Virus record (IMG/VR): IMGVR_UViG_3300042429_000672
Span: 1-22,799 of that record
Origin: a virus
Length of the DNA stretch: 22,799 bases
Reading direction: 5' to 3' (one strand)
Shown here one piece after another: positions 1,770 through 22,799 of the stretch. Made by a program: the position numbers and the translations under genes. The notes under the pieces are model-generated. The model saw only the letters and a program-made list of their open reading frames with translations, had not been told where the DNA came from and did not search any database. Position 1 is the stretch's first letter; every line of letters starts with the position of its first letter.

Positions 1770-2326
1770 AACTGTTTTATTTTATCAAGTTTTAAAATTT
1801 CTTTTTCTTCATCCCAACCTTCCCACACTTCAAAATCATTTCCAACAATTTCAATCAAGTCAATTCCTAGTTTGTCTTCCCAGAAACTAACAAGGTCTTC
1901 AACTTTGTTAAAGATTCTATATTGTAGTGAGATTTCGTCTTTGTGTAATCCATTTCTAGTAATCTTAATCACCTTTGGAAACAGCTTTTGAAACTGTAAA
2001 GATGTTTTTGAATATTTACCTTCTTTGACAAGAACAAAATCATTCTTATACTTGTCATCGAGTTGATAAACAACCACTACAAATCCATCTTCATAATCAT
2101 AGTCTTCAATCACTGCTTTTGTTCTCTCGTATTCACTGTCTAAGAACTCTCTAAACTTATCCAAGTTCTCAGGCTTAAATAATAAATAGATGCATTCATC
2201 ATAACAGTCTTCCTTTCTTGCATCTTTTACATATGCATTAATAAAACCATTTCCTCTAAGAGCGTCTTTAGGTACCTTGAGAGTAGGTACCATAAAGATA
2301 CTAGTTATATTCTTTTTAATCTCCAT
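1748..2326 (-). CDS. Hypothetical protein (about 192 aa)
   Basis: I do not recognise a family. The frame is open from an ATG at 2353, but I prefer the ATG at 2326. It follows the stop of the upstream nuclease gene by one base and has AAAGGA four bases ahead, while the longer start would overlap that gene by 26 bases. The protein is acidic and looks alpha/beta, with DGFVVVVYQLDDKYKNDFVLV in the middle and an aromatic, acidic patch NDFEVWEGWDEEKE near the C-terminus. It follows the PD-(D/E)XK nuclease directly, so a link to that enzyme is possible but unproven. Confidence 0.6.
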   Translation of the reverse strand: MEIKKNITSIFMVPTLKVPKDALRGNGFINAYVKDARKEDCYDECIYLLFKPENLDKFREFLDSEYERTKAVIEDYDYEDGFVVVVYQLDDKYKNDFVLVKEGKYSKTSLQFQKLFPKVIKITRNGLHKDEISLQYRIFNKVEDLVSFWEDKLGIDLIEIVGNDFEVWEGWDEEKEILKLDKIKQLCAIEKY

Positions 2327-3993: not shown

Positions 3994-4220
3994 AATGTTT
4001 GTTTAAATGCTTCTATAATTTGTGGATACAAAGCTCTCACCTCCCTTGGTACTCTTGAGAAAAACCATCGGATTTCAATTTCATAATGATGTCCATTGAC
4101 ATCTAATCCTTGCGGATGCACTAACCAGAAATGATGATATTTTCCTTCATGTTCAACGTGTCCTTCATGAAAAATTTCATGAAATGCAGGTTCTTTATTA
4201 ATCGTTATTGCGTTCTTCAT
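3990..4220 (-). CDS. Histidine-rich hypothetical protein (76 aa)
   Basis: The 76-residue product is rich in His (FHEIFHEGHVEHEGKYHHFWLVH and NGHHYEIEIRWFF) and ends in a helix PREVRALYPQIIEAFKQ. The His clusters sit on predicted strands and could bind metal, though no catalytic motif such as HExxH is present. It overlaps the zinc-ribbon micro-gene upstream by 23 bases and the next gene downstream by four. Confidence 0.65.
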   Translation of the reverse strand: MKNAITINKEPAFHEIFHEGHVEHEGKYHHFWLVHPQGLDVNGHHYEIEIRWFFSRVPREVRALYPQIIEAFKQTL

Positions 4221-4347
4221 AGTTGAAAAGTTTTTTTAAATGTTTATGCATTCTATTTCCGTAGCACCATGGACATGTTCCATTGTTCCTACAGGAGTGA
4301 CTAACAGCTTTAGCTCCAGTTAGCTTCTTCTTAATAGTCCTGCTCAT
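4198..4347 (-). CDS. Zinc-ribbon-like micro-protein (49 aa)
   Basis: A 49-codon frame encodes a very basic protein with SHSCRNNGTCPWCYGNRMHKH at residues 16-36. Cys19, Cys25 and Cys28 with nearby His form a plausible zinc knuckle. The pattern (basic N-terminus MSRTIKKKLTGAKAV, CRNxGxCPWCxGNRxxK) resembles a conserved small phage protein I have seen without function. It may bind nucleic acid (inference). It begins two bases after the previous stop and runs 23 bases into the next gene. Confidence 0.65.
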   Translation of the reverse strand: MSRTIKKKLTGAKAVSHSCRNNGTCPWCYGNRMHKHLKKLFNYEERNND

Positions 4348-4349
4348 TA

Positions 4350-4508
4350 TTAATAGAGTTTAATTCTAAAGCCCCATCTTGATGTAGCCATATAAGTTTC
4401 AAAATAATAGTCTTGCCAGTAATACATCATATCACCAGACACTTTATCGTAGAATGGTGTTCTTGTTGTTTTCACCATTGTACATCTACTTATAAGATTT
4501 TTTATCAT
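4350..4508 (-). CDS. Aromatic-rich micro-protein (52 aa)
   Basis: The 52-codon frame starts at an ATG overlapping the upstream stop (ATGA at 4508-4505). A second in-frame ATG at 4478 would give 42 residues. The body is rich in aromatic residues: FYDKVSGDMMYYWQDYYFETY, then TSRWGFRIKLY. There is no transmembrane segment and no recognised family. Gene tiling at both ends supports it. Confidence 0.5.
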   Translation of the reverse strand: MIKNLISRCTMVKTTRTPFYDKVSGDMMYYWQDYYFETYMATSRWGFRIKLY

Positions 4509-4834
4509 TGTTTAAATATATTAGTGATTTGTTCAAATACCCATTGTGTTAAATAAGCTTGTAATTCGTCTTCTTTTGTACTAGGAGATGTGTCTAATGA
4601 ATCTAATATGTGATTAACAACATGAACAGATTCATGTACAATAATTCCATTAGAAACATTTACACTATCAAAAGCTACAACATAATTATCATCTTCGTCT
4701 AAAAATGTTACAGCATCATATTTACCTTCTGGAATTTTTGTTTTGTATTTTAGATTAACTAAAGCAAAATCTTCAGTGTTTATCACAATCAATTTTCCAG
4801 GAAAGATTGGTATTTTTATTTCTTTTTCTATCAT
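4505..4834 (-). CDS. Putative HExxH zinc metallopeptidase-like protein (109 aa)
   Basis: The 109-residue protein carries H67-E-S-V-H71 in GIIVHESVHVVNHIL, the HExxH signature of zincin peptidases. A downstream acidic residue (E90 in KEDELQAYLTQWVFEQI) sits where a third ligand might lie. The N-terminal half is beta-rich with no known domain. Small phage proteins of this form, VHExxH then an E-xx-AY helix, are common and are usually annotated as hypothetical or ImmA-like. Peptidase activity is inference from the motif. It overlaps the HNH gene by four bases (ATGA). Confidence 0.65.
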   Translation of the reverse strand: MIEKEIKIPIFPGKLIVINTEDFALVNLKYKTKIPEGKYDAVTFLDEDDNYVVAFDSVNVSNGIIVHESVHVVNHILDSLDTSPSTKEDELQAYLTQWVFEQITNIFKQ

Positions 4835-5217
4835 AATTTCTTTTTTGATTGTTTCTCTTTTAATGTTTTTTTATCATGACATGTAGTACATAATACTTGT
4901 AAGTTGTCTTGTTCACAGAACAATCTCTCCACAAATCCTGGAAGATCTTGTGCTGTATTTAATGAACCTGCAGGCTTTATGTGATCTACATTAATATTCT
5001 TTTCAATATTCCAACTTTTGCATTTCTTACATTGGTATTCGTACTTCTGACGTTTATTAGGTCCTTTGTAATCTCTACGTGCATTTAGTTTACATATTGA
5101 TATTGGCTTCCACCATCTACTCTTTTGTCTCAAAGCACTTCTTATGAAGCTCCAGAAGGCTGCCTCACTCATCGTACCATTACATCTTGTCTTTGGGACT
5201 AACACTCTCTTTGCCAT
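4831..5217 (-). CDS. HNH endonuclease
   Basis: The 128-residue protein has the full HNH arrangement: a Cys pair C63/C66 in YQCKKCKSWN, the DH dyad D78-H79 in VDHIKPAG, N105 in DNLQVLC, and a second zinc pair C110/C113 before H114 (LCTTCHDKKT). The basic, Trp-rich N-terminus may bind DNA. It could be a free-standing homing endonuclease or a phage DNA-processing HNH; nothing here separates them. It has its own upstream region with a -7-like box inside an inverted repeat (5225-5276), a layout shared with the GIY-YIG genes. Confidence 0.85.
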   Translation of the reverse strand: MAKRVLVPKTRCNGTMSEAAFWSFIRSALRQKSRWWKPISICKLNARRDYKGPNKRQKYEYQCKKCKSWNIEKNINVDHIKPAGSLNTAQDLPGFVERLFCEQDNLQVLCTTCHDKKTLKEKQSKKKL

Positions 5218-7162: not shown

Positions 7163-9490
7163 TTAGTCTATTAATTGTTCAACGGTTTCTTCTGTTAACA
7201 CCTCATCATTGATTCTAATGTTGTAATGTTTTAGGTTCACTCTGTGTTTGTAATACTTGAAAAGATCAGTCATTACATTAACTATTGGATCTTGTTCATT
7301 GTAATATCCTATTCTTGCACACAAAGGATTTAAGAATACTAATTTAGTTAATAATTCTCTCATTTCCAAAGCTTCAGGGTACATATTCATATCGAATAAG
7401 TTATTTTCTTCAGCTACGGATAATATAGAATTTAAGAAGTCTTTTGCTGGACCACTTCCTCCAGAATAATTAGGGATAACATAATTATCACCAACATATT
7501 TAGATAGAGCAAGCAACTTCTCACTAAGTTCTGTAGATACATATCCTACTTGAGTGGATCTTTCAAATATAAACCTGTATTCGTCCATCAATTTTCTGAT
7601 GTAACATGCTGTGGCCATTCTTTTGAATGGTGCTGTATTTCCTTCCATAAATGTTTCTAATGATATTAAATTGTGAATCTCTGAATCTTTCAATATAGTT
7701 AATTCTCTTTGAGAAAATGTAACCACTTCCATCTTTTGTTTACTTATAAGACCATATAATGCATCTATTTTTAGATAGTCATCATGGTGAGCATACACTC
7801 TCAACATCTTGTGAGTGTGCATCTCTTCTAACTTATAAGTAATAGGAACGAATTTACAGTTTCTACCATCACTCCATTTCATAAGTTCTTCAGCACGTTT
7901 ACCAATCACCTCTCCTTTAAGTTTAGGACCTCTTGCTACTGATTGACCTGTAGAAGTTACAACTGCTCTCACCTTCTTTCTAGAATCGATGAATGCTTGT
8001 GGCACCTCTAATTCATCTAGATTTATGAAAGATGCAGATATCATACCTATAATAGATTGATATTCTTTAATAACATCTCTCCATTGATTCTTAGGATATT
8101 TCTTTAAGTCTAATAGATGATAATATGTTCTGATGTCAAACTTAGCAGGATTTCCTAATGTCATAGGCTTGCTTGGTTTTACAATAAACACTTTATCACT
8201 GTTACTATAAATGCTTCTTAAATAATCTTTTTTGATTCCTGACACCTTGTCTTGATAATTATACACCTTTGCATCATTGGCAGCTAAAGTTTGAGGTTTC
8301 CAATGCCAATTATATCCTTTTGTAGCATCCATCATTTTCTTATTGTGCAAATAGAACTTAACAGTAAAATCTTCTAATAAATAATTCTTTTTATTAGAGG
8401 TATAGAATGTTGCAAAATCAATAAGAGAAAGTCCTTCCAATTGTGGAGTTTTAACTTGAACAGTTGCATATTCTGAAAGATCATCAATTCTAATAGATGA
8501 ACCATTAAAATCAATATACTTCCCTGATTTCTCTAAGTGATTAATCATAGACTTAATATCACATCCACTCTCTACACTTTCGTTGTATTTATTTATAAAA
8601 TAATCAGCAACATCTGCAAGTTTAGATTTAATAATCTCTTTTGCTTCCTGAGTATATCTGATAGACTCTCTGTTTGGTGTTGGATAGATTCCATCTGTTA
8701 GAGAAAATCTAAGAGCAATAGGAAAGCTTATTCTAGTTACACCTATTTTATCAAAGTCTAATGGATAGTACACATTGTCTAAACATATGTGTAAATGATT
8801 TGCTTGAGATAATTCAGAGAACTGAAAATCAGGATGTCTAGAGATGACAAATTCATTATGTATACTGCTATCAGATGGTACATCAAAATACACATCTTCA
8901 AAATAACAAAGCTGTTCTTTGATCTTTTGTCTAAACTGATACTGATCCTGATACTTAACTGGTACAATCACCTTAACACCGTTTCTCTCTGTTGTAGGAG
9001 TTTCATGAAGAAGATCAATAGTGTTTACATCTTCTCCTTCGTACATCATGTACTTACGCTCCATACCATCTTTTCTACATACAAAATAGAAACTAGAACT
9101 ATAAGCTAGAGGAGCCTTAAATCCGAGTCCCATCATACCTAATTCTGTAGTGGACTCACGCTTAGTAGACTTACCATACTTACTAATAATGTTCTTTACA
9201 TCATCAGCATCTAGACCAATACCAAAATCCTCTACAGAGAATTCATAGTTGTGGCTATTACTTTCTTTAAACGCAACAACAATTGGATCTTTCACTCCAG
9301 CTCTTCTGTGACTGTCTAGAGCATTACTTGCACATTCTCTGATAGTAGAGCCTATATCATCAGAATATAAATTCTTACTTAACATCTGCATCAATATCTG
9401 AGCAGAATCTAAATCTAGTGACATTCCAATTGATTCTTGTGATTGTCCATCAACTAGGACATTTGCTTCTTTCTGTTTTTCTAATATCAT
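7163..9490 (-). CDS. rIIA: rIIA-like GHKL ATPase
   Basis: The 775-residue protein begins with a GHKL (Hsp90/histidine kinase/MutL/gyrase) ATPase domain. The N box is E52-C-A-S-N56 in IRECASNALDSH, the G1 box is D88-F-G-I-G92, and the G2 box is GMMGLGFKAPLAYS (118-131). This size and layout with a long unique C-terminus match T4 rIIA, a membrane-associated protein of the rII locus. The rIIB-like gene downstream supports the assignment. T4 rIIA is about 725 residues. The catalytic boxes look intact, so ATP binding is likely. The role during infection of a Bacteroidota host is not known to me. Confidence 0.8.
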   Translation of the reverse strand: MILEKQKEANVLVDGQSQESIGMSLDLDSAQILMQMLSKNLYSDDIGSTIRECASNALDSHRRAGVKDPIVVAFKESNSHNYEFSVEDFGIGLDADDVKNIISKYGKSTKRESTTELGMMGLGFKAPLAYSSSFYFVCRKDGMERKYMMYEGEDVNTIDLLHETPTTERNGVKVIVPVKYQDQYQFRQKIKEQLCYFEDVYFDVPSDSSIHNEFVISRHPDFQFSELSQANHLHICLDNVYYPLDFDKIGVTRISFPIALRFSLTDGIYPTPNRESIRYTQEAKEIIKSKLADVADYFINKYNESVESGCDIKSMINHLEKSGKYIDFNGSSIRIDDLSEYATVQVKTPQLEGLSLIDFATFYTSNKKNYLLEDFTVKFYLHNKKMMDATKGYNWHWKPQTLAANDAKVYNYQDKVSGIKKDYLRSIYSNSDKVFIVKPSKPMTLGNPAKFDIRTYYHLLDLKKYPKNQWRDVIKEYQSIIGMISASFINLDELEVPQAFIDSRKKVRAVVTSTGQSVARGPKLKGEVIGKRAEELMKWSDGRNCKFVPITYKLEEMHTHKMLRVYAHHDDYLKIDALYGLISKQKMEVVTFSQRELTILKDSEIHNLISLETFMEGNTAPFKRMATACYIRKLMDEYRFIFERSTQVGYVSTELSEKLLALSKYVGDNYVIPNYSGGSGPAKDFLNSILSVAEENNLFDMNMYPEALEMRELLTKLVFLNPLCARIGYYNEQDPIVNVMTDLFKYYKHRVNLKHYNIRINDEVLTEETVEQLID

Positions 9491-13237: not shown

Positions 13238-13885
13238 TTATTTTAAATAATAAAATTTACTTTGTGTTTTTTGTTTTTTTACTCTTCCTTTAATGTAAGA
13301 ACATATAGTGGGAACAGAAAGATTATGTTGTTTTGCAACATCAGTTAAACTTTCCCATATAATTTCTTCTCCTGATTGAGTAACTTCTTTTATTTTAATT
13401 TTTCTAGTACTTCCTTTACTGATGTTTTTTCTATGCTCATCAGTTATTACTTGTAAAGCTCTTTTTTTTCTTATTAAAGCTTTAGTTTCTTCAGAATGAT
13501 TAAACTCTCCTTTTTTATGTCCTCTATTTTTACATTTAGATAATGCTTCTCTACATTTTTCAGATATTATTCCTGTTTTACCTCCTTTCGTTATATTTAA
13601 TAAATTATTTCCATCCTGTATACATTTATCTATCCAATAAATTTCTTTTTCTTCCCATTCATCAGTAAGAACTTCTTCAAGAATATTTAACTCAGGTCTA
13701 ATACCTAAATCAAGTAAACTTCTTATCCATTCTGCTTTTTCTTTATTTTTTCCTTTTTTCTTATTTTTGGCTTCACCTATATGTCCCCAAAATCTATTAA
13801 AAGGATTTGCAGTTTTTCCAACATATCTAACTTCTTTAGTAGTAGGGTCACATAAAGAATATATGTATACAGTTTTCATTATCAT
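13238..13885 (-). CDS. Free-standing GIY-YIG homing endonuclease with NUMOD-type repeats
   Basis: The 215-residue protein opens with a GIY-YIG nuclease domain: VYIYSL (6-11), VRYVGKT (19-25), R31 and H35 in NRFWGHI, and a catalytic-type Glu in EEKEIYWI (78-85). DNA-binding modules follow: NUMOD3-like GHKKGEFNHSEETKALI (122-138) and a helix-turn-helix LTDVAKQHNLSVPTICSYI (180-198). The genes on both sides look intact, so it is free-standing rather than intron-borne, like the seg genes of T4. A second ATG at 13879 is an alternative start. Codons are AT-richer than in its neighbours, in keeping with mobility. Control by the upstream repeat is described separately. Confidence 0.85.
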   Translation of the reverse strand: MIMKTVYIYSLCDPTTKEVRYVGKTANPFNRFWGHIGEAKNKKKGKNKEKAEWIRSLLDLGIRPELNILEEVLTDEWEEKEIYWIDKCIQDGNNLLNITKGGKTGIISEKCREALSKCKNRGHKKGEFNHSEETKALIRKKRALQVITDEHRKNISKGSTRKIKIKEVTQSGEEIIWESLTDVAKQHNLSVPTICSYIKGRVKKQKTQSKFYYLK

Positions 13886-18543: not shown

Positions 18544-18801
18544 TTAATTTTTGATTCTTAATCCATAAGCCATGTTAAACCAATCAAATGTGGCAATAGC
18601 TCTGGAATTGTTAAATTTAAAGATTTTTTTTAATAGTGGCATTGCATACTTCCTGAACTGTTCATATTGTTCTGAAGTCATTGTAATGTTAAAATACCAC
18701 TGGTCATCATACAATGTATCTAACATAGTTTTACCAACCATTTCTAATTGGTATTCTATTAGATGTCTTGTAATGTTTTCTCTGTTTACCTTTGCTTTCA
18801 T
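18544..18801 (-). CDS. Conserved hypothetical phage protein (85 aa)
   Basis: The 85-residue basic, helical protein starts in an ATGA overlap with the polymerase stop codon, so its translation is tied to the last polymerase exon. Sequence features are ENITRHLIEYQLEMVGKTML, QWYFNITMTSEQYEQFRKYA and TFDWFNMAYGLRI. I do not know its function. The coupling to the spliced polymerase message suggests a replication role. Confidence 0.65.
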   Translation of the reverse strand: MKAKVNRENITRHLIEYQLEMVGKTMLDTLYDDQWYFNITMTSEQYEQFRKYAMPLLKKIFKFNNSRAIATFDWFNMAYGLRIKN

Positions 18802-19603
18802 TCAAATAGATTTAATTGATTTGGAATAAATACTGTTTTGATTCTCTTACCCTCAGTCTTTATCTTTGTTACTATCCTGTTTGCTTTTTCAATATAGTAA
18901 TCATAATTGACATTGTCAACTGATGCATTCTTTGGTAAGAAGTTACACACTTTACATACCCATTCACCAGCTTCCACTTGACTGATAGCAGCTGCTCTAG
19001 TTTGACATTCAGGGTTCTTCACCTTGAATATCTTATCACCAGTGTTGGATACATAATATCTGATTAGTTTGTTATAGACAGTGGTTTCACCTGTAGATCT
19101 ATTAGTTCCCTCATAATGAAAACTTCTACTGGCCTTCTGTCTTATACAAAAATCATATAGATTAGTATGATTTCTAATAGTATGCTCAACAGGAGTACCA
19201 TGTACAAAGTAATGCTCAAGAGCAATTGGAACCACTCTTGCCGATTTATTCTTGTGTAACTCAAAGTCAGTAAGGAAATCACCTTTCTTTTTAATTTCTC
19301 CATTAGTCATAATTGCTAAATAATCGTTCACCGTACTAAAGATAATCTTGGAATAGTCGGTTCTTTCTAACTCATATTGAGTGATGTCACACCACCACTT
19401 ATTGATATCATGCATCAAAGGAATCAGTTCTTTCTTAATCTTGATAGTTACACCATCTGTGTTTGCAGAGATCACATGTATGCCATTGGTTTCATATTTT
19501 TCAATAAGCATCATTAGACTAAGCTCACCAGTTATTGTGGTGAACATAGTTAATTGCCTATCATATATCCAATTCTGCATATCAGAGCTTTTCGGTTTTG
19601 TTA
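18798..19603 (-). CDS. Family B DNA polymerase, exon 3 (C-terminal part)
   Basis: This exon completes the polymerase: it adds two bases of a Leu codon and 267 residues. It begins TKPKSSD before the first ATG of the open frame (19580), so that ATG is internal. IYDRQLTMFTTITGELSLMM is the helix after motif B. ISANTDGVTIK is motif C, with the catalytic second Asp of DTD kept and the first replaced by Asn, a common phage variant. The basic motif HKNKSARVVPIALEHY marks the start of the thumb. The stop overlaps the next gene by four bases. Confidence 0.85.
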
Positions 19604-19784
19604 CCCTATAGGCTTTTTATCCTATAGTTCTTACAGTTCTTTTTCCTGTAAGCCCAGCATATATTTTCACCCACTTGGGGTGTCGGACACTCGTGGCGGT
19701 TTATATTCTTTGGAAGGTCCCAAAGTTTCACCCACTATGCGTTACACTGACATAGACTTTTTATTTTCTATGTTTAGCACGGTA

Positions 19785-20618
19785 TTAGGAATCACACCCT
19801 TCACCGTTTTTGCCCAATTTTTCAACATGAATTGCTTCATGAAGCGGCTGATTGCTAAATATCAGTCCTTTATATAATTTACCAGTTTTACATGATTTAT
19901 TAATGTTTCCTGAAGACAAGAACTTAATAGGAATACCCATTCTTTCTTTTTCAAATCTACTTTTTATTGGTAGATTGTTTTCTTCAGTAGTAGACCATTC
20001 TTCAATGTCTTTTGAACATCTAAAATCTGTAAGAAAATTACAATTTGCATCGTACACATAAACTTTAGGAGAATTATCTCTTTGTTTTTCACCTTGTAAT
20101 CTATATTTATTAAGAACTTTTTCTGATATAGTTTTTTTCACATTTTTTAAATATGAATAATCTATTTCTCCTTGTTTTTTTTCTTTATTCCAAGGTGTAT
20201 GTCCTTTTTTAAAATTAGATTGTATTTCTCCAGAAGCATATCTTCTTTTCATTGTCTCAGCTCTCTTTAATATTGTCTCTTTTGACATATTTGGAGTACC
20301 TGACGCTAAAGGATTAATATTGTACAAATCATCAAAATTGTGTTGATTTATCCAATACTGCTCTTGTTCTAAAGTTAAATGTTTCTCAGTATTTTCTATA
20401 ATTGAGGCACAAAAACTAGTTTCACCATATTTGTTAAAAGCATTTTGTAAATGTGCATTTTTATGCTTATTTGCTCTTAACATAGATACATGATGTTCTA
20501 TTCTTTTTATAACTCGCATTACAGAAGATCCAATGTATATTTTACCATTCATTAGATTTTCGATAACATAAACTCCAGGTTTTTCTGAAGAACAATTATG
20601 CGCTATTGTAATTTCCAT
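19785..20618 (-). CDS. Intron-encoded GIY-YIG homing endonuclease (intron 2)
   Basis: The 277-residue protein has a GIY-YIG domain with GVYVIE (15-20; Val for Ile), KIYIGSS (26-32), an R39/H42 pair in IKRIEHH, and a Glu-rich EQEQYWI (84-90). Intron-endonuclease DNA-binding modules follow: KKGHTPWNK (137-145) and a NUMOD1-like YVYDANCNFLTDFRCSKDI region. It would cut the uninterrupted polymerase gene and drive intron homing. Its last dozen codons (ending NGEGCDS) run into the intron core, so protein and ribozyme sequence overlap. A start-proximal hairpin and promoter lie at 20620-20665. Confidence 0.85.
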   Translation of the reverse strand: MEITIAHNCSSEKPGVYVIENLMNGKIYIGSSVMRVIKRIEHHVSMLRANKHKNAHLQNAFNKYGETSFCASIIENTEKHLTLEQEQYWINQHNFDDLYNINPLASGTPNMSKETILKRAETMKRRYASGEIQSNFKKGHTPWNKEKKQGEIDYSYLKNVKKTISEKVLNKYRLQGEKQRDNSPKVYVYDANCNFLTDFRCSKDIEEWSTTEENNLPIKSRFEKERMGIPIKFLSSGNINKSCKTGKLYKGLIFSNQPLHEAIHVEKLGKNGEGCDS

Positions 20619-20634
20619 AAGTAAGAATTTTTTA

Positions 20635-20665
20635 CAAACTTACTAAAACTTTCCGTAAATTCAAA
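20635..20665 (-). promoter_or_regulatory. Bacteroidota-type promoter for the intron 2 endonuclease
   Basis: TTTG (minus strand 20665-20662), 19 bases, TAAGTTTG (20642-20635): an exact match to TTTG-N19-TAnnTTTG. The -7 box overlaps AGTAAG (20644-20639), which pairs with CTTACT (20625-20620) one base before the ATG at 20618. A message begun here would lack the left arm of that hairpin. Confidence 0.7.
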
Positions 20666-20695
20666 GAACTAAATTAAATTTAACAATTTCTTAAC

Positions 20696-20878
20696 AACCG
20701 TATACAGAGTTAACTGCAAGTTTAAGGGCTCCTACAATTCCTTTAATCTTTTTATCCTTCTTAGCAAGTGGTTTAAGCTCTAATCTCTTCTCAAACATCT
20801 GTTTGTATCCCCTAAGGAATTCCTTACCCAAATGAGCAGGAAACTGCCCATTATTGATGATGATGGCTGGGTAGTATG
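20696..20878 (-). CDS. Family B DNA polymerase, exon 2 (motif A end to motif B)
   Basis: The 183-base exon contributes CA, 60 codons and a final T. It runs from the YYPAIIINNGQFPAHLG half of motif A to KLAVNSVYG, the Kx3NSxYG motif B that binds the incoming nucleotide. The fingers between them are only about 60 residues, so there is no room for the TPR2 insertion of protein-primed polymerases; this enzyme probably uses RNA primers. The open frame with an ATG at 20903 is not a gene, since its first eight codons lie in the intron. Frame continuity with exons 1 and 3 is exact under the proposed splice sites. Confidence 0.85.
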
Positions 20879-20931
20879 CATCCCAGCTCCTGTAACCTTT
20901 CAATTACAGCTGGACTATATCATCATTTAAC

Positions 20932-21588
20932 TTATTTTAATTCTTTTTTCCAAACATAACCATAGATAGATGGTTTATGACCTGAACACACTGAATAAAT
21001 TTGTTGCCATTTGTAATTTTTATTTTCTTCTGTAATTTCACTTACAGAATTCCATTTCTTTACAAACTCTCCATCTTTTGTATACTGATAAATATTATAC
21101 TTAGTTGTAGATTCTGAAACTCTTTTTGCCATTTCTTTAGTAGCCTCTGGATTATCTTTCCAATATGTATGACTAACCTTTAGTCTTTCTTTTGAATCTT
21201 TAAATCGTTTAATCTGAGCTTCACTACATTTGTTTCTTGTTTCTTCTGAAACAATGCAATTAGTTTCTGAATCTAATCTAATATTGTATCCTTTATTTCT
21301 ATCAGTACAATTGTAAGACATCTGCCAATATAATTCTTGTGTTTTTAATAAGTCAAACGGTACATATTCTACTACAAAATATTCAAAGTTTTCTCTACCA
21401 TATTTGTGCCATGCATTTATTAAGTGATCATTTTCATTATCTCTATTTTTTTTATTGAGATTATTTATATGTTGTCTGATCCTTCTGTATATACATTTAG
21501 CCTTTCCTATATAGACTTTATTATTTACTTTGTTTCTTATGCAGTATATACCGCTTTGGTTTAAATGCTCTTTTCTATTTAATTTCAT
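20932..21588 (-). CDS. Intron-encoded GIY-YIG homing endonuclease (intron 1)
   Basis: The 218-residue protein has GIYCIR (13-18), KVYIGKA (24-30), R35/R36 and H40 in YRRIRQH, the YG-x-NFEYFVVE strand, and QELYWQM (84-90) with the catalytic-type Glu. The C-terminal 60 residues form a NUMOD1-like module: IYQYTKDGEFVKKWNSVSEI, ending SIYGYVWKK. It would promote homing into motif A of intron-free polymerase genes. It resembles the intron 2 enzyme in plan but not closely in sequence, so the two introns probably arrived separately. The gene has its own promoter and a start-codon hairpin (21587-21618). Confidence 0.88.
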   Translation of the reverse strand: MKLNRKEHLNQSGIYCIRNKVNNKVYIGKAKCIYRRIRQHINNLNKKNRDNENDHLINAWHKYGRENFEYFVVEYVPFDLLKTQELYWQMSYNCTDRNKGYNIRLDSETNCIVSEETRNKCSEAQIKRFKDSKERLKVSHTYWKDNPEATKEMAKRVSESTTKYNIYQYTKDGEFVKKWNSVSEITEENKNYKWQQIYSVCSGHKPSIYGYVWKKELK

Positions 21589-21604
21589 GTTCTATACTTT
21601 TTTA

Positions 21605-21635
21605 CAAATATAAAACATTAGATGGATAGAACCAA
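21605..21635 (-). promoter_or_regulatory. Bacteroidota-type promoter for the intron 1 endonuclease
   Basis: TTG (minus strand 21635-21633), 20 bases, TATATTTG (21612-21605), a full match to the -7 consensus. The first four bases of the box belong to the left arm of a 10-bp inverted repeat, ATGTTTTATA (21618-21609) with TATAGAACAT (21596-21587), whose right arm includes the AT of the start codon. Confidence 0.7.
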
Positions 21636-21855
21636 GTCATTCATGTTAATTAAATGTTAAATGTTCCCTGTTTAGTCTCTGAACCTTGATCTATTTCAAA
21701 ATAGACCCTTGGCTGCGGATTGTCCAATCTTAACCTTTTTTACCATACCTGAGTAATTACTTCAGCCGCTACATATATTTCTATTGTAGTTTGGTAGGTT
21801 AAGCTCTAAGGAGATTCCCGTCAATTTAAGGAATTTTAGTTACGCCATAGTATTA

Positions 21856-22799
21856 ACGAAACATCCCAATCGATTATCTCGTACTCTTCATCAGCCTCAA
21901 ACACTTTAGGTTTGTTCTCTGTATGAAGACCACCTTTCATAAAAGAATATACATTTCCATAGAAATCTATATGCTCTTTGAAATCATCTTGTAAGCCAAG
22001 TTGCATCTTTGTAATCTTCTTTAAGAAATCTTTAAGTTGATCAGTTTCAAATGTTACATACTTAGCAATACAATTCTTTACGTTAATGCTCTTTCTGAAG
22101 TATCCCTTCTTTGGAAGTTCTCTGTAATCTATTCCTTTCTCAGAACAGTAATACTTCTTAATCATTTCATCCCCTATCTTACTATCTGAATAGTTCATAC
22201 ATGGAATACCAAACTCTGATTCAATGTCTTGTCTCAGCTCTATTTGATTATTCCCTTTGTATAAAGGATGATCAGTCTGTCCAAGAGTTATCTTGTAGAA
22301 TTCATACGTAGCATCAACATCATTATAACAATAGTCAACAGTCATATCAACTTCTTCTTTTGTCATATTAGTCTTGGTGTGATGAATAGGCATCTCTTCA
22401 ATGTTCTCTAGGTCCATCTCAAACTCTAATCTCTTCAAGCTCACCATTCGATTTTTATTATCATAATGGTGTATCTTAAACAAATCAAGTTGCTTCAATG
22501 ATAACTCGTGTTCTCTGTATTCTGGGAACACATCATAATTAGCATCATGGATAACATCAGCTGCTTTCTGTGCTATTTTTGCACATATTTCTAGATTTGA
22601 TAGTTCATGCCAATATTCATGGTTTCTTAATACCCATTCAACAACTTGACTATCAAAGCGTAGATTATTATACCCTACCCAATAAGCATCAGCATTAGCC
22701 TCTGTGTATCTAACAAACTTATCTAGTTCGTTTTTCCATTTAGACACTTGAAAGCTCTTACCAGCTTTACCAGGCACCATACAAACTATTAAGAATAGT
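21856..22799 (-). CDS. Family B DNA polymerase, exon 1 (3'-5' exonuclease domain, partial)
   Basis: The frame is open to the window edge, six codons beyond the ATG at 22780. That ATG is therefore probably internal, and the Exo I motif (DxE) lies outside the window. Visible are Exo II YWVGYNNLRFDSQ (NxxxFD), Exo III DYCYNDVDATYEFY (YxxxD), the KGGLHTE motif linking exonuclease and palm, and the first half of motif A, IIDWDVS, with the catalytic Asp. The last codon is split at the intron (T then CA, Ser). In the unspliced message the frame continues for five foreign codons and stops. Proofreading replicative polymerase of the crAss-like type is the best reading. Confidence 0.88.

Follow-up and report, generated by a model that had tools for sequence, protein, structure and literature searches.

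A phage family B DNA polymerase gene divided at motifs A and B by two predicted mobile group I introns

The IMG/VR virus record IMGVR_UViG_3300042429_000672, a linear fragment of 22,799 bases that was analysed in its entirety and is called the window here, contains three exons of a single DNA polymerase gene on the minus strand (22798-18798). Two stretches intervene between the exons, and each holds one open reading frame (ORF) for a GIY-YIG protein. The split family B polymerase gene is real, and it is very probable that it represents one phage gene with two independent mobile group I introns. Intron 1 interrupts motif A, and intron 2 directly follows motif B.

The polymerase gene

Exon 1 (21856-22798, minus strand, as are all features of this gene) encodes the exonuclease domain up to DVS of motif A. 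Exon 2 (20697-20878) extends from YYP of motif A to NSVYG of motif B, and exon 3 (18798-19592) extends from KSSD to the end of the protein and includes motif C (ANTDG). A preliminary description of this DNA, made from the sequence, had joined three exons of one polymerase in one frame, and this proposal agrees with intron-free relatives, which align with the joined protein unbroken. The joined protein matches PHROG 1252 (phrog_1252), a DNA polymerase family, over nearly its full length (E = 1.5e-134). The 5' end of the gene lies off the window, such that about 15 codons are gone, including the first exonuclease motif; 639 amino acids are encoded within the window, of about 653 in full. The intact polymerase of one relative, L012, has 653 amino acids and shows the family B motif order: DIE, NNLRFD and YCHND (Exo I-III), DVSSYYP (A), KLAVNSVYG (B) and ANTDG (C). 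The folds nearest to a low-confidence structure model of the polymerase are all family B polymerases; the model was used for fold class alone. A Pfam scan found no polymerase family in the protein, and a sequence-profile search of solved structures (PDB) returned no match.

Assemblies made independently (L002 and L003, 100% identical) contain the same two introns, as does L011, which is a diverged phage, so the two-intron gene is not a product of chance. It might still be that the gene is dead or that the insertions are never spliced, in which case another polymerase would replicate the phage or the exons would act as separate polypeptides. Splicing is predicted here from DNA and each gene fragment has an ORF, which favours this explanation. 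However, all three exons are open, the protein is 83-94% identical to those of close intron-free relatives, and the ribozyme pairing described below is maintained by compensating changes. Moreover, motifs A, B and C would fall on three separate peptides, and no family A polymerase was found in six related contigs of about 115 kilobases. A dead or unspliced gene is therefore very unlikely. The same six contigs also lack a match to terminase PF03237.

Exon-intron boundaries

A search with exon 3 yielded 80 relatives with 72-100% identity. Among these, L002 and L003 are the same phage in other assemblies, and they carry the introns, as does L011; nearly all remaining relatives are continuous across both sites. 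At each site 76 intron-free alleles were used, many of which are related, so that the counts are not counts of independent events. All 76 read DVSSYYP at site 1 within a continuous ORF (DVTSYYP in one of them), and thus junction 1 is exactly 21856|20878 (T|CA, DVSS|YYP, motif A). Intron 1 (20879-21855) consequently comprises 977 nucleotides within the second Ser codon of motif A, the codon that it splits in the pattern DxxS[YL]YP.

At site 2, the sequence NSVYGKSSD is found in all 76 intron-free alleles (with V-F-G in one). The true junction 2 is 20697|19592 (GGT|AAA), which is the sole junction that gives NSVYG-KSSD without an insertion and also provides a U before the 5' splice site and a G as the last base of the intron. 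Intron 2 (19593-20696) therefore comprises 1104 nucleotides and falls between two codons, immediately behind motif B (NSVYG|KSSD). The cut is the same in L011, L097, L120, L106 and L107, and the junction is common to six intron-bearing alleles, including that of L003, which is the same strain, and two with an intron of only 289 nucleotides.

In the preliminary description, junction 1 was placed where the intron-free relatives put it, and junction 2 was placed at 20696|19603 (intron 20695-19604). The reading frame stays open across the latter junction, which also has a U before the cut and a G at the end of the intron. The resulting polymerase would carry LTKP between NSVYG and KSSD, whereas all intron-free relatives read NSVYG-KSSD and LTKP is found in 0 of 76, so this junction is wrong. 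In addition, TAACAAAACCG is conserved as the intron 3' end across the whole intron 2 family, in unrelated genes, and the junction 20697|19592 is also obtained from five further loci with the intron, which belong to other phages or assemblies. That this polymerase carries LTKP is accordingly extremely unlikely. The alignment of intron-free polymerases, which the same description had suggested as a check, thus reproduces its joined residues at junction 1 and contradicts those at junction 2. Similarly, its placement of both introns within motif codons applies to intron 1, in the second Ser codon of motif A, and fails for intron 2, which follows NSVYG between codons. Boundaries set by eye or by frame alone may err by several residues, as happened at junction 2.

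Intron 1

Intron 1 is a group I intron, to judge from its sequence and predicted pairing. Its site is exactly empty in the 76 relatives and is occupied in a further 16 loci for which the boundaries were read, as well as in L108 and L112, which were read in part. The last base of the intron is G in 17 of 17 alleles. The Rfam group I model, RF00028, matches the 5' half of the core (21663-21836), which includes P3, P4, a long branched P5, P6 and the 5' strand of P7, with a score of 43.4 bits (E = 4.6e-10). This match was obtained from short stretches alone, and Rfam searches of the whole window gave no match. In an alignment of 12 distinct sequences, P3, P4, P6, P7 and the long branched P5 are kept and are mostly invariant, and P9 is looser.

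The guide of intron 1 (21839-21849) begins with UAUG (21849-21846), for pairing with CAUA of the 3' exon in P10, and continues with GCGUAAC (21845-21839), for pairing with GUUUCGU of the 5' exon in P1. A U.G pair is located at the splice site of P1 in all 12 sequences. P10, read from the same alignment, is possible from the bases that adjoin the guide.

A GIY-YIG homing endonuclease gene (20932-21588; PF01541, E = 5e-10; TIGR01453, 75.8 bits) occupies the P8 loop. Just before this gene, at 21600-21640 on the minus strand, most of the 17 sequences contain TTGG, about 18 bases and then TAYATTTG, an element that resembles a Bacteroidota promoter. When promoters of the Bacteroidota type were sought before the endonuclease genes, one match was found before that of intron 2, and the window total of 2 compared with 1.2 expected is no more than chance.

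Intron 2 and its family

The 3' 230 bases of intron 2 recur in many phages and genes, as revealed by a DNA search. Cores of this type are found in a RecD-like helicase gene of a Bacillus phage, in tape measure genes of Staphylococcus, Arcanobacterium and Streptococcus phages, in a capsid gene, in DNA polymerases of Leptolyngbya and Alicyclobacillus phages, and in a polymerase/primase gene. An alignment of 25 cores exhibits covariation in P3, P4, P6, P7, P7.1, P8, P9 and P9.1. Among its 52 pairs, 99.5% of 1284 cells are paired and 34 pairs have changes on both sides. No shuffle of 500 scored as high, and sliding the partners by 1-3 columns left only 33-42% of cells paired. The P7 helix occurs as A(C)GCAUA/UAUGCU and as G(A)GCAUA/UAUGCC, a switch in which a pair and the bulged base change together. 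Because 25 relatives show covarying core helices, the sequence identifies intron 2 as a group I intron despite the absence of an Rfam match. The two group I introns at motifs A and B that the preliminary description had recognized are thus upheld by the RF00028 match for the first and by covariation for the second.

A covariance model built from the 25-core alignment, R1, matches the window at 19822-19599 with 210.9 bits, and finds nothing at intron 1. The matched region (19599-19822) is the catalytic core from P3 to P9.1. R1 also finds cores in about 60 further viral loci, all of which were preselected by a short sequence pattern, and among the polymerase loci it matches only the three known to carry intron 2. 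In contrast, RF00028 has no match at E<=1 in 16 R1-positive loci, has none at a family core in twelve annotated phages, and in ten more family loci gives one sub-threshold match at a family core (30.8 bits). About 40 members of the family with the same fold are therefore missed by the Rfam model, and this miss is a limit of the model and not of the class definition.

An intron of L190 (about 8738-9002), which is outside the R1 alignment, is matched by both R1 (84.7 bits) and RF00028 (70.5 bits), and this ties the intron 2 family to group I. That intron 2 is some other element, as the failure of RF00028 to match it at E<=10 might suggest, is scarcely credible given covariation that backs the P3/P7 pseudoknot, P4-P6, the bulged P7, P8 and P9, the L190 intron that both models match although R1 was not trained on it, and the 6 of 6 alleles that have a U ahead of the 5' splice site and end the intron in G. 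An intein was ruled out, because the exons are in different frames with stops between them. A group II intron was considered from the sequence ends, which lack a GUGYG start and have a terminal G.

Class IA is marked by a hairpin that separates P7 from the 3' strand of P3. Intron 2 has one covarying hairpin in this position (P7.1, helix 5), and the predicted core fits the IA type. Introns of subgroup IA1 would have P7.1 and lack P7.2, and any likeness of intron 2 to them would lie in this one hairpin between P7 and P3; PMC3984707 lists P7.1 and P7.2 among the features of the class.

The predicted guide of intron 2 is GCCG (19845-19848), located on the 3' side of the endonuclease gene, and would pair with CGGU of the 5' exon to form P1. 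The order of guide, P2 hairpin and P3 is shared with the Leptolyngbya phage intron and with the mini-introns of 289 nucleotides. A guide upstream of the endonuclease gene (AUUGU) was ruled out, since the introns of L106 and L107, which lack the endonuclease, and that of the Leptolyngbya phage place the guide downstream. No P10 was found for intron 2.

Several other loci contain members of this family. In L082 (1-1826), from a Bacillus phage, an intron of the same family interrupts a RecD-like helicase gene at the codons for Walker A, and its site (GGT|AAA TCT) resembles the motif B site of the window (GGT|AAA AGC). In L174, a family core (1851-2055, minus strand) is inside a phage transfer RNA (tRNA) array. 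The sequence after its 3' end resembles a tRNA T arm (GGTGTTCGAATCACC), and so the core may interrupt a tRNA gene; ARAGORN predicts ten tRNAs in L174 and none at 1851-2055. Another phage polymerase, in L219 (8122-13424), is apparently broken at three places by intervening sequences and has two R1 matches. L190, an IMG/VR viral contig with several group I introns, also has direct-repeat arrays of clustered regularly interspaced short palindromic repeats (CRISPR; RF01327) at 728-1542 and 4182-4538, which may be host DNA beside a prophage.

Endonuclease genes and the ribozyme

The GIY-YIG homing endonuclease gene of intron 2 (19785-20618; PF01541, E = 1.5e-9; TIGR01453, 87.1 bits) is in the P1 loop. 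Both intron endonucleases score above the curated cut-off of 56 for TIGR01453, a model of group I intron endonucleases. The last approximately 25 codons of the intron 2 gene (about 19860-19785) double as strands of the ribozyme RNA, namely the 3' strand of an extended P1, the GCCG guide, P2, the 5' strands of P3 and P4, and P5, with the stop codon in the joining region J5/4. In L106 and L107, the 289-nucleotide intron at the same site has lost the endonuclease gene and has kept the overlapping stretch, which would be expected of a stretch that the RNA requires. The LAGLIDADG gene of the Leptolyngbya phage intron stops at the same UAA as the GIY-YIG gene of intron 2, and hence genes of two unrelated endonuclease families terminate at the same place in the ribozyme.

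Two additional ORFs on the minus strand of the window appear to be free-standing between genes. One (13238-13885) is a third GIY-YIG ORF and is related to the intron endonucleases, and the other (4831-5217) is an HNH ORF.

Distribution and mobility

At least 18 other contigs, whose polymerases have 55-92% identity, carry intron 1 at this same position, and L011, L097, L120, L106 and L107 do so for intron 2. Some loci have intron 1 alone (for example, L099-L105 and L109-L116), others have intron 2 alone (L097 and L120), both are present in the window, L011, L106 and L107, and the rest have neither. Cores of the intron 2 family are even located at the motif B position in polymerases of just 33-40% identity (L182 and L231). 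L250 has an intron in the neighbourhood of motif A.

The introns are much more similar than the genes around them. L011 differs from the window at 1 of 1104 positions in intron 2, and exon 3 beyond its first 100 bases is 82.9% identical. Intron 1 of L108 is 99.4% identical to that of the window, compared with 85.8% for exon 1, and intron 1 of L099 is 97% identical, compared with 71% protein identity. L108 and L011 were both assembled from one metagenome, and the two may belong to a single phage whose sequence was broken within intron 1. Since the introns are far more alike than the surrounding exons, occupy the same sites and occur one without the other, these sequence comparisons indicate homing of both introns and recent transfer.

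It had been proposed in the preliminary description that homing endonucleases target conserved sites, and the distribution agrees, because the same sites are filled in polymerases down to 55% identity and the intron 2 family reaches motif B at 33-40%. The further statement that such sites cannot drift is correct for the protein and incorrect for the DNA: the seven codons of site 1 are spelled in 30 ways among the 76 intron-free alleles, mostly with serines AGT TCT or TCT AGT. None of these is the intron-bearing spelling, GTTTCGTCA being contained in 0 of 76, whereas 17 of 17 intron 1 alleles read GTTTCGT|C[AG]TA, consistent with P1 and P10. Intron 1 thus either travels with its own exon spelling or demands it. 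Co-conversion and selection for pairing both fit, and these alleles do not distinguish between them.

Proposed mechanism

In the proposed mechanism, a pre-mRNA transcribed from the minus strand (22798-18798) would contain both introns. Intron 1 (21855-20879) would fold with P1 (GUUUCGU/GCGUAAC), P10 (CAUA/UAUG) and a P3/P7 core, and intron 2 (20696-19593) with an IA-type core that has P7.1 between P7 and P3. Each intron would excise itself by two guanosine-started transesterifications, and the joins T|CA and GGT|AAA would create an unbroken polymerase. Each GIY-YIG protein would cut intron-free copies of its own site, and repair would copy in the intron plus a little flanking exon. The sequences show the boundaries, the folds (by covariation for intron 2, by the model match and kept pairs for intron 1), the empty and filled alleles and recent transfer, whereas the guanosine-started self-splicing and the cutting of empty alleles are inferred, the latter indirectly from introns that are more similar than their exons. 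Replication likely depends on splicing, because no unspliced product unites motifs A, B and C and because no family A polymerase was found in the six related contigs.

Several observations weigh against the interpretation as one gene with two mobile group I introns. The RF00028 score of intron 1 is below the Rfam gathering score of 50, which is attributable to the endonuclease insertion, and the same model does not match intron 2. The P1 of intron 2 is short, with 4 pairs (CGGU/GCCG). The structure model of the polymerase is of low confidence (mean predicted local distance difference test score, pLDDT, of 56.7). Finally, splicing and cutting are deduced rather than read from RNA.

Relation to known systems

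The window provides a clear natural case of a core replication enzyme that would need assembly by two unrelated ribozymes. Since closely related phages have alleles with no, one or both introns, homing can be traced at two sites of one gene, together with the co-conversion of exons and the loss of endonucleases. A practical gap is also exposed, in that a common family of phage introns is missed by the Rfam group I model. This model has already been called incomplete (PMC11878797), and both that recent survey and an intron database (PMC11835236) start from searches with it. We consider the chances roughly even that the following hold together: that the IA-type group I introns of phages include a large branch, for the most part uncatalogued and unseen by Rfam, which intron 2 represents, so that model-based counts miss many introns in polymerase, tape measure, capsid and helicase genes, and that an endonuclease gene can run through the guide, P3, P4 and P5 to stop in J5/4, so that translation of the gene precludes splicing and vice versa.

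Group I introns with endonuclease genes are already well known in phage polymerases, and the less ordinary feature is how large a family of introns escapes Rfam. Conserved genes such as DNA polymerases are favoured intron targets (PMC3984707, a review). The polymerase genes of SPO1, Bastille and phiNIT1 have self-splicing group I introns with homing endonuclease genes, and splicing has been shown for several (PMC11878797; those of SPO1 and Bastille are also cited in PMC3984707). That of phiNIT1 has two introns in one gene (PMC11878797). PMC3428280 reports a group I intron with an endonuclease gene in the DNA polymerase of cyanophage Pf-WMP3. Passages of PMC7886860 describe crAss-like Zeta and Delta phages in which group I introns separate several ORF fragments of the family B polymerase gene (PolB), one Zeta PolB being in four fragments. 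Because polymerase introns are documented in all of these phages, the window adds to a known kind.

The window resembles SPO1, Bastille and phiNIT1 in having group I introns and endonuclease genes in a phage DNA polymerase. However, those are other phages with polymerases of phrog_17, whereas that of the window belongs to phrog_1252, and their introns mostly encode HNH and LAGLIDADG proteins, whereas GIY-YIG genes are in both introns here. The crAss-like PolB genes, as described in those passages, are similar in being fragmented family B genes with group I introns; in the window, the sites and folds of both introns are resolved, as are the intron-free alleles, and the likeness does not imply that its phage is crAss-like. 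The td intron of T4 with its endonuclease I-TevI (PMC3073962) is a precedent for a group I intron with a GIY-YIG gene that overlaps, and partly encodes, ribozyme pairs. The overlap in td involves P6a, P6 and P7, whereas the gene of intron 2 lies within the P1 loop and shares sequence with the guide and P2-P5.

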